Source: Bacteroidota bacterium
GTDB taxonomy: Bacteria; Bacteroidota; Ignavibacteria; Ignavibacteriales; Ignavibacteriaceae
DNA length: 41,654 nt
NCBI GenBank assembly: GCA_021813585.1
Contig: JAKAJV010000013.1
Coordinates: 1 to 41,654 of the forward strand
Direction of reading: 5' to 3'
Positions 36,803 to 41,654 of this stretch are shown here, one piece after another. The notes beneath the pieces are model-generated. The model was not told where the DNA came from and made no database searches. It was given only the letters and a program-made list of their open reading frames with translations. The position numbers and the translations under genes are program-made. Within the stretch, counting starts at the first letter, position 1, and every line of letters begins with the position of its first letter.

Positions 36803-37060
36803 ATTATCTTAACCCCAAAAAATGTTATCATCAATTCTATTTAACCATGCGTGTAATTTAATATAACATACAGGTAATATTTGTAAAGATAAAATTTTTA
36901 ATTTTAATATAAAGCCCGCTTCTTTATTTTTCTTTACCGATAATGAATTATGATAGCAAAATCACATATAATACGATAATAATTTTGCTTTAAACAGGTT
37001 GAGTAAATCATGCATTATTCCGTTCAGTTAAAATTAAAGCAAAGTATCGGGAAGACTGTA

Positions 37061-37128
37061 TTTAAAATTAAAAACCCCAATTTGTTTTGGGGTTTTCTTT
37101 AGCTCCGCGAGCAGGGCTCGAACCTGCA
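37061..37128. repeat. Direct repeat of 68 bp, left copy (terminator plus tRNA 3' end)
   Basis: Matches 37420-37487 with two mismatches. It contains a terminator hairpin and the T arm plus acceptor 3' part of tRNA-Asn. The two copies are 359 bp apart and enclose the GIY-YIG gene. Confidence 0.92.
37071..37096 (-). terminator. Terminator hairpin, left copy
   Basis: A 10-bp stem, AAAACCCCAA with TTGGGGTTTT, downstream of the tRNA-Asn remnant on the minus strand and followed there by TTAATTTTAAA. It is part of the duplicated 68-bp segment and may end transcription of the whole tRNA/GIY-YIG unit. Confidence 0.65.
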
Positions 37129-37160
37129 TCCCGATAGCTATCGGGATAACAGCCGAATGC
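37104..37160 (-). pseudogene. Broken tRNA-Asn, 3' portion
   Basis: On the given strand, 37104-37127 matches the T arm and acceptor 3' strand of the intact tRNA (37463-37486). Bases 37148-37160 match its anticodon loop and the 5' strand of the anticodon stem (37499-37511). Between them a 20-bp palindrome at 37128-37147 replaces the other anticodon strand and the variable loop. Beyond 37160 homology stops and the GIY-YIG stop codon follows at once. It cannot fold as a tRNA. Confidence 0.9.
37128..37147. repeat. 20-bp perfect palindrome inside tRNA remnant
   Basis: ATCCCGATAGCTATCGGGAT is a perfect palindrome located exactly at the break in the 3' tRNA remnant. The related sequence at 37576-37593 shares the same 8-bp arms. 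Confidence 0.95.
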
Positions 37161-37161
37161 C

Positions 37162-37419
37162 CTAAAACTGTATCTCTCCTCTTACCAATTTCTCTACCAT
37201 CTCTTTACTCTTCCAACTCTTAACCTTTAATTCTGCCTGATGTGCTTGTTCCCTATTCTCATATTCTTTTGTGAACTCTACTGCCCACGGACGATACCGC
37301 GACGTGAATCCTCTTTCTATCGAGTTATGATAAGTCAGTCTTCTTTCAGGATTTTGTGATATTCCGGTATAATATTTATCTGCTGTTTTTGATTTTAATA
37401 TGTATAAATAATATTTCAT
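37162..37419 (-). CDS. Small GIY-YIG nuclease-family protein
   Basis: An 85-residue single GIY-YIG domain of the UvrC N-terminal/YhbQ type. It shows YLYILKS (4-10), the YYTG variant of the second motif (16-19), the arginine segment NPERRLTYHN (23-32), and the expected glutamate in QAELKVKSWK (E63). I place the start at 37419 (MKYYLYIL). An in-frame ATG upstream at 37488 would translate part of the tRNA gene and is rejected. The start codon touches the right copy of the 68-bp direct repeat, and the stop codon touches the tRNA remnant, so the gene fills the whole space between the repeats. Such small proteins lack the DNA-binding tail of known homing enzymes. Nuclease activity and mobility are inference. 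Confidence 0.88.
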   Translation of the reverse strand: MKYYLYILKSKTADKYYTGISQNPERRLTYHNSIERGFTSRYRPWAVEFTKEYENREQAHQAELKVKSWKSKEMVEKLVRGEIQF

Positions 37420-37487
37420 TTTAAAATAAGAAACCCCAATTTGTTTTGGGGTTTTCTTTAGCTCCGCGAGCAGGGCTCGAACCTGCA
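37420..37487. repeat. Direct repeat of 68 bp, right copy
   Basis: Second copy of the segment at 37061-37128. This copy runs into the intact tRNA-Asn and ends at the base before its variable loop. Confidence 0.92.
37431..37454 (-). terminator. Terminator hairpin after intact tRNA-Asn
   Basis: A 9-bp stem, AAACCCCAA with TTGGGGTTT, 7 bp past the tRNA discriminator on the minus strand and followed there by CTTATTTTAA. It would end the tRNA transcript just before the GIY-YIG start, so the nuclease gene would be expressed only by read-through or from a promoter within the repeat. Confidence 0.65.
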
Positions 37488-37533
37488 ACCCTTCGGTTAA
37501 CAGCCGAATGCTCCACCATTGAGCTATCGCGGA
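37462..37533 (-). tRNA. tRNA-Asn (anticodon GTT)
   Basis: Intact cloverleaf on the minus strand: 7-bp acceptor TCCGCGA/TCGCGGA, D arm GCTC/GAGC, anticodon arm TTCGG-CTGTTAA-CCGAA with GTT, and T arm GCAGG-TTCGAGC-CCTGC. The discriminator is G, and no CCA is encoded. It is the only complete copy at this locus and lies between two broken copies. The promoter candidate at 37646-37675 would read through the 5' remnant first. Confidence 0.97.
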
Positions 37534-37564
37534 ATAATTTTCTTTTTTTTTATTTCCGTTTACT

Positions 37565-37614
37565 CTTCGGTTAACATCCCGATCAATCGGGATCCACCAT
37601 TGAGCTATCGCGGA
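37565..37614 (-). pseudogene. Broken tRNA-Asn, 5' portion
   Basis: On the given strand, 37594-37614 matches the acceptor 5' strand and D arm of the intact tRNA (37513-37533). Bases 37565-37575 match its anticodon loop and 3' stem strand (37491-37501). An 18-bp near-palindrome (37576-37593) replaces the 11 bases between. It is the mirror image of the other remnant: together their outer parts make a tRNA without an anticodon arm. Confidence 0.9.
37576..37593. repeat. 18-bp palindrome inside tRNA remnant
   Basis: ATCCCGATCAATCGGGAT has 8-bp arms identical to those at 37128-37147 but a 2-base centre. It sits exactly at the break in the 5' tRNA remnant. Confidence 0.95.
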
Positions 37615-37645
37615 ATAATATTTTTATCCTCTTTTAAAGATTTTT

Positions 37646-37675
37646 ATTATATAATCTCTCTAAAACGGAGATCAA
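37646..37675 (-). promoter_or_regulatory. Candidate sigma-70 promoter of the tRNA-Asn locus
   Basis: On the minus strand, TTGATC (37675-37670) and TATAAT (37651-37646) are 18 bases apart. Transcription would begin near 37639, about 25 bp before the 5' tRNA remnant and about 105 bp before the intact tRNA. This lies in the 331-bp gap before the MacA-like gene. Confidence 0.45.
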
Positions 37676-37682
37676 AAATAAA

Positions 37683-37701
37683 GACAAATGCCAAATTTGT
37701 C
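37683..37701. promoter_or_regulatory. Inverted repeat, possible operator
   Basis: GACAAAT and ATTTGTC flank a 5-base centre, between the divergent tRNA promoter candidate and the MacA-like gene. It could bind a dimeric regulator. No regulator gene is adjacent, and the remaining gap up to 37945 shows nothing else. Confidence 0.3.
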
Positions 37702-37945
37702 AAGCTTTATTAAGTCATAAAACATTTAATTTTTTAGTAATTAAAAATCATCCTGCGCATTAAGCCAAAAGTATATATGCATAATTATTACCTATAAACA
37801 ATGTGTACCAGAATACATCGATTTATTTTTATTAAACTGGACAAAAATAAATCATGTCAAAACCAGTACAAGGAAACGAAAGGAAAACAGAAATAATTGT
37901 TTATGGAACCTCATTATCTTCGCTACAAATATTAAGGTAAATCAA

Positions 37946-39995: not shown

Positions 39996-41212
39996 ATATA
40001 CTAAATGTAATTAAGGTAGCAATACTTTCCCTGGGAAGAAATAAAATGCGTTCCTTCCTTACTATGCTTGGAATTATAATTGGCGTTGCGGCTGTAATAG
40101 CAATGCTTGCAGTGGGACAAGGTGCAAAATCTGCAATACAAACGCAGATACAAAGCCTTGGTACCAATATGATCATAGTTTTCCCGTCGGCTGTTTCGCA
40201 GGGCGGTGTAAGTACGGGTGCCGGCACCAGCATTAAGCTAACGCCTGAAGATGCTGCTGCCATAGCTAACGAATGCCCATCGGTTGAATATGTTTCTCCG
40301 GTCATTCATACTTCCGCACAGACAATTTATAAGAACATGAACTGGAGAACCGAGATTCAAGCGGGCAATACAAATTATTTTCAAATTAGAAATTGGACTC
40401 TTCAATCAGGCAATTTTTTCAATGAGAATGATATTAAGAGCGATGCCAACGTATGCCTGCTTGGGCAGACAGTAGTACAGAATTTATTCGGCACAAGCGT
40501 TAATCCTGTAGGCCAGTTAATAAGAATAAATAACCTGCCATTTAAAGTTATCGGGGTTTTAAATGCAAAAGGTCAAACGGCAATGGGTAATGACCAGGAT
40601 GATATTATAATAGCCCCTTTTACTACAGTGCAGACAAAAATGCTGGGATGGACGTGGGTTAATGTAATCCTGGCTTCGGCTCAATCTTCGGCGGCTATTA
40701 ACGACGCAGAGCAGCAGATAACTGAGGTCCTACGCTCGCGGCATCATTTGCAAACATGGGAGCCGAACGATTTTACTGTTAGGACTCAAACCGATATAGC
40801 AACCGCCGCCGAATCGACATCGAGGGTATTAACAATTCTCTTGGCAAGCATTGCGTCCGTCTCACTTATAGTAGGAGGCATTGGTATAATGAATATTATG
40901 CTTGTTTCGGTAACAGAGAGGACGAGGGAAATCGGCATCAGGATGTCTATAGGAGCCAGAGGGAAAGATATACTATACCAGTTTTTAATAGAGGCCATTA
41001 TGCTGAGTCTTTTGGGTGGCTTAATAGGAGTGCTGCTGGGGATAACAGCCTCGGATTTAATCTCTTCTATAGCAAAATGGACAACACTGATTTCACCGGA
41101 ATCAATAATTCTATCTTTCGGTTTTTCAGGCGCAGTGGGAGTGTTCTTCGGTTTTTACCCGGCAAGAAAAGCCGCAATGCTTAACCCGATTGATGCATTA
41201 AGGTACGAATAA
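39992..41212 (+). CDS. ABC transporter permease, MacB/FtsX type
   Basis: A 406-residue permease with four membrane segments: one near the N-terminus (about 20-42, within MRSFLTMLGIIIGVAAVIAML), then a large periplasmic MacB-PCD domain (about 50-245). Three C-terminal segments follow in the FtsX domain, which contains the typical VGGIGIMNIMLVSVTERTREIGIRMSIGA and ends FYPARKAAMLNPIDALRYE. It is complete. Substrates of the family include antibiotics, peptides and lipoproteins; the sequence does not tell which. It ends the operon, and a strong hairpin terminator follows 9 bp later. Confidence 0.95.
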   Translation: MNILNVIKVAILSLGRNKMRSFLTMLGIIIGVAAVIAMLAVGQGAKSAIQTQIQSLGTNMIIVFPSAVSQGGVSTGAGTSIKLTPEDAAAIANECPSVEYVSPVIHTSAQTIYKNMNWRTEIQAGNTNYFQIRNWTLQSGNFFNENDIKSDANVCLLGQTVVQNLFGTSVNPVGQLIRINNLPFKVIGVLNAKGQTAMGNDQDDIIIAPFTTVQTKMLGWTWVNVILASAQSSAAINDAEQQITEVLRSRHHLQTWEPNDFTVRTQTDIATAAESTSRVLTILLASIASVSLIVGGIGIMNIMLVSVTERTREIGIRMSIGARGKDILYQFLIEAIMLSLLGGLIGVLLGITASDLISSIAKWTTLISPESIILSFGFSGAVGVFFGFYPARKAAMLNPIDALRYE

Positions 41213-41220
41213 AAATTAAA

Positions 41221-41245
41221 GCCGTTAGTTTCCTAACGGCTTTTT
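41221..41245. terminator. Terminator of the MacAB-like operon, possibly bidirectional
   Basis: An 8-bp stem, GCCGTTAG/CTAACGGC with loop TTTC, is followed by five T residues on the + strand. On the minus strand the stem is followed by TTTAATTTTT, so it may also end the convergent barrel gene whose stop is at 41314. Confidence 0.9.
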
Positions 41246-41313
41246 ATGCTGTATTAGGAGAGGGGTATGAACAAATTCAAAGTTTCAGCAGTGAAGACCG
41301 CGCTTTTAAATTT

Positions 41314-41654
41314 TTAGTAAGCGAAGCCGACCGATATATAATGGACGTTTCCGAAAAGTCCGAAGGGCTCGATTGCATAATCGACTCTAAGCGGAATACC
41401 GGAAACATCGGCTTTAACGCCAACGCCTGCCGTCCAGCTTCTTTCATCGTAATTAAACATATACCCTGCACTCGCGGTAAAGTAATCCAGAAAATGATAC
41501 TCGACCCCGAACTTTGCCTTTTCTCCAAAGTCCCTCGGATGCCTGGACTCGAAGCTTACAATAATTGATTTGGCGGTTTCATCATCTAATAAAAATTGAA
41601 GCGGCTTTACCGTAGCGCTAAAGCTGACTTCAAACGTCAGCTAGAAATCCGAAT
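41314..41654 (-). pseudogene. PorV/PorQ-type barrel protein, C-terminal part, truncated by the window edge; in-frame TAG near the edge
   Basis: The minus-strand frame ending at 41314 reads LTFEVSFSATVKPLQFLLDD (from 41640), ESRHPRDFGEKAKFGVEYHF, SAGYMFNYDERSW, and a closing strand VDYAIEPFGLFGNVHYISVGFAY. This is the C-terminal barrel pattern of PorV/PorQ-like proteins, with final aromatic residue as expected. Going upstream, an in-frame TAG occurs at 41643-41641 after SDF, with no start codon between, so the frame is broken there. This could be a real pseudogene, a sequencing or assembly error at the contig end, or a frameshift. It converges with the MacAB-like operon. Confidence 0.65.

Follow-up and report, generated by a model that had tools for sequence, protein, structure and literature searches.

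How does a tRNA gene come to stand between two broken copies of itself, with a nuclease gene in their midst? The question is raised by a stretch of 41,654 nucleotides, here called the window, at positions 1 to 41,654 of contig JAKAJV010000013.1 (assembly GCA_021813585.1), from a Bacteroidota bacterium of the family Ignavibacteriaceae. On the minus strand of the window, an intact tRNA-Asn gene, two dead pieces of tRNA-Asn and a GIY-YIG nuclease gene of 85 codons lie together. The answer that we favour, and to which we give a little better than an even chance, is that the nuclease is a free-standing selfish endonuclease bound to tRNA genes, whose cutting would drive the partial tandem duplication of the tRNA. 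The case is built on the anatomy of the locus, its recurrence in related genomes, the strand and polarity of its parts, the fidelity of nuclease lineages to tRNA isoacceptors, purifying selection on the nuclease, flanks that are duplicated in part, and an empty site in a relative.

The tRNA-Asn locus and its empty counterpart

Read in the direction of transcription, the locus consists of a dead 5' piece, the intact tRNA, a terminator, the GIY-YIG gene, a dead 3' piece and a second terminator, all on the minus strand. ARAGORN calls no tRNA in the window other than the intact tRNA-Asn(GTT) at 37461-37533. The outer dead 5' piece (37562-37614) comprises nucleotides 1-43 of the tRNA, with an 18-nucleotide hairpin, ATCCCGATTGATCGGGAT, at 37576-37593 in place of the 5' strand of the anticodon arm. 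The outer dead 3' piece (about 37102-37160) comprises nucleotides 23-73 and abuts the stop codon of the GIY-YIG gene (37162-37419), whose 85-residue product has the residues conserved in the tRNA-associated family; its 20-nucleotide hairpin, ATCCCGATAGCTATCGGGAT, stands at 37128-37147 in place of the 3' strand of the anticodon arm and the variable region. Both hairpins are perfect, both lie at part of the anticodon arm, and each piece retains one strand of that arm.

A terminator-like repeat follows the intact tRNA (37431-37455) and recurs after the dead 3' piece (37071-37095). A 72-nucleotide direct repeat, made of the dead 3' end, the terminator and neighbouring bases, has its copies at 37061-37132 and 37420-37491, with 96% identity; a 33-nucleotide stretch that includes the tRNA 5' end is likewise repeated 81 nucleotides apart, with 94% identity. 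The probable promoter of the unit, recognised by eye at 37673-37703, lies upstream of the outer dead 5' piece: it combines TTGACA (37698-37703) and TATTTTTG (37673-37680), the promoter consensus of Bacteroidota being TTG..TAnnTTTG.

An earlier reading made from the sequence only had listed these parts, and all of them are present. It had also taken the outer pieces for the two halves of one gene, split in its anticodon arm by a single inserted cassette. This reconstruction fails for the window: the outer pieces share tRNA nucleotides 23-43, an overlap of about 21 nucleotides, and so are not what a single split gene would leave, and in relatives the parts occur apart from one another. The relative locus L168 has the downstream part alone; two tRNA-Asn loci (L145 and L147) have a downstream dead piece, and a third (L159) an upstream one, seen by eye, with no listed nuclease match on any of the three contigs. 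A group I intron in the tRNA gene was rejected too: the functional tRNA is uninterrupted, and an Rfam scan of window positions 36900-37800 finds only tRNA above the gathering score, and no intron family up to an expectation value (E) of 1. The sole gene recognised between the tRNA pieces is the GIY-YIG gene, with no recombinase gene beside it, and its reading frame is free-standing, with no surrounding host protein, intron or intein. The locus looks like the outcome of two partial duplications of tRNA-Asn.

The same reading had called for an empty site, and one was found in a genome of the same genus (G004), which has one intact tRNA-Asn and no nuclease match at E 0.001. Window positions 37562-37754 align at 80% identity with the tRNA-Asn locus of that genome (L138), an alignment that spans the promoter region as well as the outer dead 5' piece; further sequence of L138 aligns at about 73% with window positions 40538-41227 and 41312-41625, and the downstream flank of the window locus has no alignment with L138. 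It follows that the dead 5' piece of the window occupies the place of the functional tRNA of G004. The functional copy stands 81 nucleotides further on than the ancestral position. The locus is thus seen in an occupied and an empty form, the syntenic tRNA-Asn of G004 being without the gene. The tRNA-Asn loci of four more genomes (G003, G005, G006 and G008) are without a dead copy, and their listed nuclease matches are on other contigs or there are none.

The nuclease beside tRNA and tmRNA genes

Homologues of the 85-residue protein (query P0001) are found in 52 of 59 genomes and, at the level of the phylum, in 176 of 296, the window's own genome being included in both counts. The order-level loci that we examined are the four matches of the window's own genome, 29 chosen automatically, and regions fetched from one-contig genomes first and then mostly by E-value; this sample is a part of the matches, with weaker or unlisted ones outside it. 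The 45 phylum-level loci are 25 automatic choices and 20 made by hand, in which arrays were favoured. Two duplicate loci, L247 and L214, were dropped before counting.

At the order level, an intact tRNA lies within 300 nucleotides at 67 of the 90 loci, the four own ones included. Five of the 90 (L177, L178, L200, L201 and L212, four of them near a tRNA) have a partial domain; the other 85 have a domain that spans at least 60 of the 77 model positions. Among these 85, 63 are near an intact tRNA, and in all 63 the nuclease is on the strand of the tRNA. Five order-level loci lie downstream of a transfer-messenger RNA (tmRNA) gene, on its strand and within about 440 nucleotides. A separate clade of homologues, with a support of 97 in the Shimodaira-Hasegawa-like approximate likelihood ratio test (SH-aLRT), serves as an internal control: none of its nine loci has a tRNA piece within 300 nucleotides. 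One further order-level locus is the decayed copy L212, and of the remaining eight, six are beside dead tRNA pieces. At the phylum level, 36 of the 45 loci are within 300 nucleotides of an intact tRNA, all 36 on the same strand, and eight of the other nine adjoin dead tRNA pieces. The tie between the GIY-YIG gene and tRNA genes with their remnants, by which the sequence-only reading could be judged, thus extends far beyond chance in related genomes. It is not a rule for all small GIY-YIG genes, an idea that we rejected: besides the control clade of the same genomes, no tRNA was called at the loci of 18 Gastranaerophilales or Cyanobacteria records with such genes.

The four homologues of the window's genome are placed at tRNA-Asn, at tRNA-Pro(CGG), downstream of tmRNA, and in the clade without tRNA links. 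At the tmRNA locus (L052, 1030-2109), a second, truncated copy accompanies the GIY-YIG gene; the gene also lies downstream of tmRNA at L199, L231, L243 and L249. Arrays of up to five units are found at tRNA-Asp in G013 and at tRNA-Leu in G030, both one-contig genomes. At L400 (700-4200, genome G105), eight GIY-YIG genes alternate with hairpin-bearing dead 3' pieces of tRNA-Met, and no intact tRNA is called in the 4.6 kilobases fetched.

The protein matches the GIY-YIG domain PF01541 with E 2.9e-16. Its nearest solved chains, 1ywl (E 4.6e-6) and 1zg2 (E 6.1e-4), are UPF0213 proteins, and NCBIfam has no model for it at E 0.01. It is thus of the same sequence family as UPF0213 and other small GIY-YIG proteins, among which the clade with no tRNA at its nine loci is a relative. 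The Tyr, Arg and Glu of the GIY-YIG domain have a catalytic role; residues Y6, Y17, G19, R27, H31 and E63 are kept in 69-70 of 70 tRNA-associated sequences, as befits members of the domain family. Compared with 11 Asn-type relatives, the proportion of nonsynonymous differences (pN) is 0.18-0.31 and that of synonymous differences (pS) 0.59-0.95. Five tandem copies in array L203 differ by 32 synonymous and 0 nonsynonymous pairwise changes, and five in L195 are identical. The nuclease is under purifying selection.

Does the nuclease follow its genome or its tRNA? The tree was built on 98 sequences and 76 columns, and many of its forks are unresolved; 69 of its rows carry a tRNA label, for 15 isoacceptors and 36 genomes. 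The isoacceptor label requires 20 changes on this tree, against a mean of 47.6 when labels are shuffled (0 of 200 shuffles as low), and the genome label requires 57, against a mean of 58.7 (31 of 200 as low). The nuclease tree therefore tracks the tRNA and shows little trace of the genome, an outcome that persists when each combination of genome and isoacceptor is represented by a single row (64 rows). A phage origin was rejected: P0001 has no match among 50,697 phage records at E 1e-5, and no relative was confirmed among 23 pattern matches in viral contigs, a search that reaches close relatives only.

Dead copies, their flanks and their hairpins

Dead pieces are present at 92 of the 103 loci with an intact tRNA, and in 82 of the 103 the nuclease has the intact tRNA on one side and a dead piece on the other (65 of 83 downstream, 17 of 20 upstream), the median distance from nuclease domain to dead piece being 27 nucleotides. 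The pieces are polar. Of 69 upstream pieces, 59 retain the 5' end of the tRNA and 3 the 3' end; among 112 downstream pieces, the 3' end survives in 86 and the 5' end in 4. This polarity would follow from partial duplications with one endpoint inside the tRNA. On the downstream side, 28 of 66 loci show an identity of at least 80% between the flank past the dead copy and the flank past the intact tRNA (95% in the window), a level reached by 0 of 323 unrelated pairs, the highest being 75%. Upstream, the flank is duplicated in 6 of 40 loci, and the highest control is 70%. In L076, L206, L224, L226, L228 and L250 the duplicated flank includes, as judged by eye, the start of the nuclease gene. A cut in the anticodon loop was rejected as a general rule, since breakpoints vary; the arrays L179, L189, L195 and L203 break in or near the anticodon arm.

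A similar arrangement has been described in the mitochondria of Glomus. The report (PMC3630166) presents mobile ORFs (mORFs) as endonuclease reading frames beside a gene whose end is in duplicate, a working copy and a displaced native copy beyond the reading frame, with a GIY-YIG case at atp9. The dead pieces could thus result from a homing insertion of this type, in which the element brings a replacement half and pushes the native half to the far side of the nuclease gene. Such an insertion would account for the order of working gene, endonuclease and displaced end in the 82 loci, an order that the mORFs share; for the unlike flanks of dead and intact copies at 17 of the 66 downstream loci and 18 of the 40 upstream ones; and for the empty site, which puts the outer 5' piece of the window at the ancestral position. 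We nevertheless think it unlikely, because the flanks of 28 downstream loci are duplicated with their terminator, so that the new end looks like a local copy, and because the two pieces of the window, with their overlap, do not complement each other. A foreign origin of the new half might leave no mark in molecules as conserved as tRNAs. In the bacterial case the targets are tRNA and tmRNA genes, and both gene ends are affected.

Fragments of tRNA are also common products of the integration of elements, according to PMC9897764, and the dead pieces might be leftover attachment (att) sites of integrative elements with tyrosine or serine recombinases. One locus has this appearance: in G040 (L213, L420 and L214; C2 187900-211100), about 20 kilobases with a large serine recombinase separate tRNA-Asn from a dead 3' copy and a GIY-YIG gene. 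As a general explanation we give it hardly any credence. The units are short, from 73 nucleotides (tRNA-Thr of the window's genome) to 450 (L203), and contain at most the nuclease gene in the arrays that we read; as many as eight GIY-YIG-bearing units stand in succession; and the pieces occur on both sides of the tRNA with opposite polarity, their inner arms replaced by hairpins. Integrative elements may be present at other tRNA-Asn loci: downstream of the tRNA, L137, L143, L144, L158 and L163 have a 3' flank (approximately AGGGATTTATGGT...GTAAGTCCCTT) that resembles, by eye, that of L150, where a serine recombinase follows, and the shared flank suggests that related elements reside there.

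Dead copies are not confined to the neighbourhood of the nuclease. In the window's genome, 16 of 41 tRNAs, called by ARAGORN in regions around Rfam tRNA hits, have dead partial copies nearby; tRNA-Ala(CGC), for example, has four and tRNA-Gly(GCC) three. Only two of the four homologues of this genome sit at tRNAs (Asn and Pro-CGG), and most of its arrays are therefore without a nuclease in cis. At L286 (1500-2395, genome G030), seven dead 3' pieces of tRNA-Thr(TGT) succeed one another with a period of 111 nucleotides, each unit having a terminator, and with an insert in the T-loop; none of the 16 nuclease matches of G030 is beside them. Both cases are what one would expect if tRNA loci were partially duplicated for other reasons, a resident GIY-YIG gene being copied along. 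This hitch-hiking is, in our judgment, quite improbable, given the isoacceptor-faithful tree, the shared strand at the near loci that were checked (63 and 36), the purifying selection among the tandem copies of L203, and the near absence of dead copies where the nuclease is absent. In five genomes without nuclease (G004, G034, G037, G042 and G048), dead copies accompany 2 of 86 tRNAs, against 26 of 86 in five nuclease-rich genomes (G013, G030, G031, G050 and G056), with a Fisher p of 4e-7; the comparison is correlative, covers ten chosen genomes and part of their tRNAs, and its statistics ignore kinship. Here, "without nuclease" means no P0001 match at E 0.001, five of the seven such genomes were taken, and the tRNAs are the best-scoring loci. 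Tandem duplication followed by decay, which the sequence-only reading had named as its main alternative, thus described the event partly correctly; the nuclease, however, is no ordinary neighbour.

What, then, are the hairpins? The 20-nucleotide palindrome pattern, with at most 2 mismatches, has 1 match in the window and 0 in 100 shuffles. In the whole genome, CCCGATN{0,10}ATCGGG occurs at 67 places, against 1 for the reversed control. Of 57 such hairpins that were examined, 36 lie next to a fragment of a tRNA of the same genome, as do 24 of 300 positions taken at random from this set of loci; other hairpins are in terminator-like stems, RNase P RNA and a thiamine pyrophosphate (TPP) riboswitch. 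Two copies, at L060 1481 and 1659, are inside RNase P RNA (RF00010, 1245-1708), and the one at L067 1562 is inside the TPP riboswitch (RF00059, 1541-1645). The hairpin pattern is found in 56 of 59 genomes, with controls at 0 or 1, and its sequence varies with the genome more than with the tRNA: the window's genome has TCCCGATNNNATCGGGA, G030 has TCCGTTAGCTAACGGA, TCCCGACAAGTCGGGA and TCCAAAGGATCCTTTGGA, and G056 and G013 have others. A perfect stem of at least 7 pairs with a loop of 2-8 is found in 105 of 181 dead copies and 17 of 103 intact tRNAs, a count that favours the dead copies, to which alone 15 extra bases per side were added.

The palindromes are not the ends of an element: a cassette with palindromic ends was rejected, since they form a dispersed family, inside dead tRNA arms and in other RNAs, and differ in sequence between genomes. 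In appearance they are dispersed palindromic repeats whose landing places are dead arms of tRNAs, the tips of terminators and the loops of structured RNAs. They may also be of use, for instance by abolishing the target of the nuclease or by preventing misfolding. The palindromic elements of Rickettsia resemble them, being short palindromes dispersed in the genome and also present in RNA genes; unlike these, the hairpins described here are 14-20 nucleotides long, genome-specific in sequence, and next to tRNA fragments in most of the 57 cases. Two genes that ARAGORN calls as tRNA-Asn at L007 (60-313), probably dead copies, have the hairpin 3' of the anticodon.

The hairpins also bear on the idea that the arrays are functional, the dead pieces being decoy or regulatory RNAs, for example against tRNA-cutting toxins, and the nuclease a part of the defence. 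In the window, the dead 5' piece follows the probable promoter and precedes the intact tRNA, and would hence be part of the transcript; both dead pieces are predicted to fold with the hairpin retained; and in phages the amplification of tRNAs driven by the nuclease SegB answers a tRNA-cutting defence, according to PMC13096335. Such a function is very improbable in our view, as truncation points vary, the hairpin sequence goes with the genome and not with the tRNA, and G004, of the same genus, has no dead piece at the 33 tRNAs examined.

Proposed cutting and repair of tRNA genes

The explanation that we favour, a tRNA-bound selfish nuclease, can be set out in a few steps. Each nuclease lineage would tend to stay with one tRNA gene, tRNA-Asn in the case of the window, and would cut within that gene or at its margin. 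The break would be mended by recombination or end-joining, giving tandem duplications that are partial and have one of their ends within the tRNA, and the only surviving products would be those that retain one complete tRNA. Since survivors need one whole tRNA, dead 5' pieces would accumulate upstream and dead 3' pieces downstream. The nuclease gene would be trapped between the working copy and a dead piece, and could be amplified along with them; the dead pieces would later be scarred by the genome's own hairpin repeats.

A precedent exists in phage T6, where, according to PMC13096335 (with a review on T4, PMC2988022), the free-standing GIY-YIG nuclease SegB cuts tRNA-containing DNA, and recombination yields tandem units of tRNA and nuclease. 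By analogy, we favour a SegB-like mechanism for the bacterial arrays. As with SegB of T4 and T6, a GIY-YIG nuclease is found beside tRNA genes, and tandem units contain a tRNA gene. In the SegB system, by the same two sources, cutting is linked to tRNA-containing DNA, and the amplified unit holds a truncated nuclease gene and depends on recombination for its formation. Unlike SegB, the nucleases described here belong to bacterial chromosomes, to many isoacceptors each with its own nuclease lineages, and are UPF0213-like proteins of about 85 residues accompanied by half-tRNA remnants with hairpins.

Several observations weigh against our explanation. The start points of downstream dead copies are spread over the tRNA, 69 of 112 at nucleotides 8-26 and 30 of 112 at nucleotides 33-49, with no single cut site. 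The intact target persists in the 103 counted loci, which a simple homing model does not explain. At the loci with dissimilar flanks, 17 of 66 and 18 of 40, the half may have been imported and not duplicated locally. No tRNA piece is near L167 and L197, of tRNA-type clades, near the decayed Asn-type L212, or near the phylum-level L381, at a contig end. Three tandem copies in L202 differ by 16 synonymous and 10 nonsynonymous pairwise changes, and some nuclease copies have internal stops. To these must be added the arrays without a nuclease in cis, both in the window's genome and in G030, and the correlative nature of the comparison between genomes with and without the nuclease. Cutting, its target site, the direction of cause and effect, a benefit from the hairpins, mobility and transfer are what we infer from the arrangements described above.

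It is tempting to extend the explanation to the whole phylum. A selfish GIY-YIG family would then exist throughout Bacteroidota, with lineages specialised per tRNA or tmRNA gene that cut it and force partial duplications regenerating one functional tRNA, the half-tRNA arrays with their hairpin scars being the fossils of these events; to this broader claim we give somewhat less than an even chance. No description of such bacterial arrays was found among the matches listed by a keyword search of the open-access literature, subscription papers being outside that search. The bacterial tRNA or tmRNA host, the isoacceptor-faithful lineages and the polar, hairpin-scarred half-tRNA arrays look new.

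Genes for tRNA are known as docking sites of integrases. If the selfish nuclease is real, they would also harbour another kind of parasite, a nuclease gene on its own with no need of a recombinase. This would provide a bacterial counterpart of the amplification driven by SegB, and natural nucleases sorted by tRNA isoacceptor; it would also explain half-tRNA arrays that annotation can take for tRNA genes, as in L007. Essential RNA genes would be permanent hosts, and how a repeatedly cut essential gene survives would become a testable question. The evidence points to a little-noticed type of selfish gene, one that lives off tRNA genes without killing its host.

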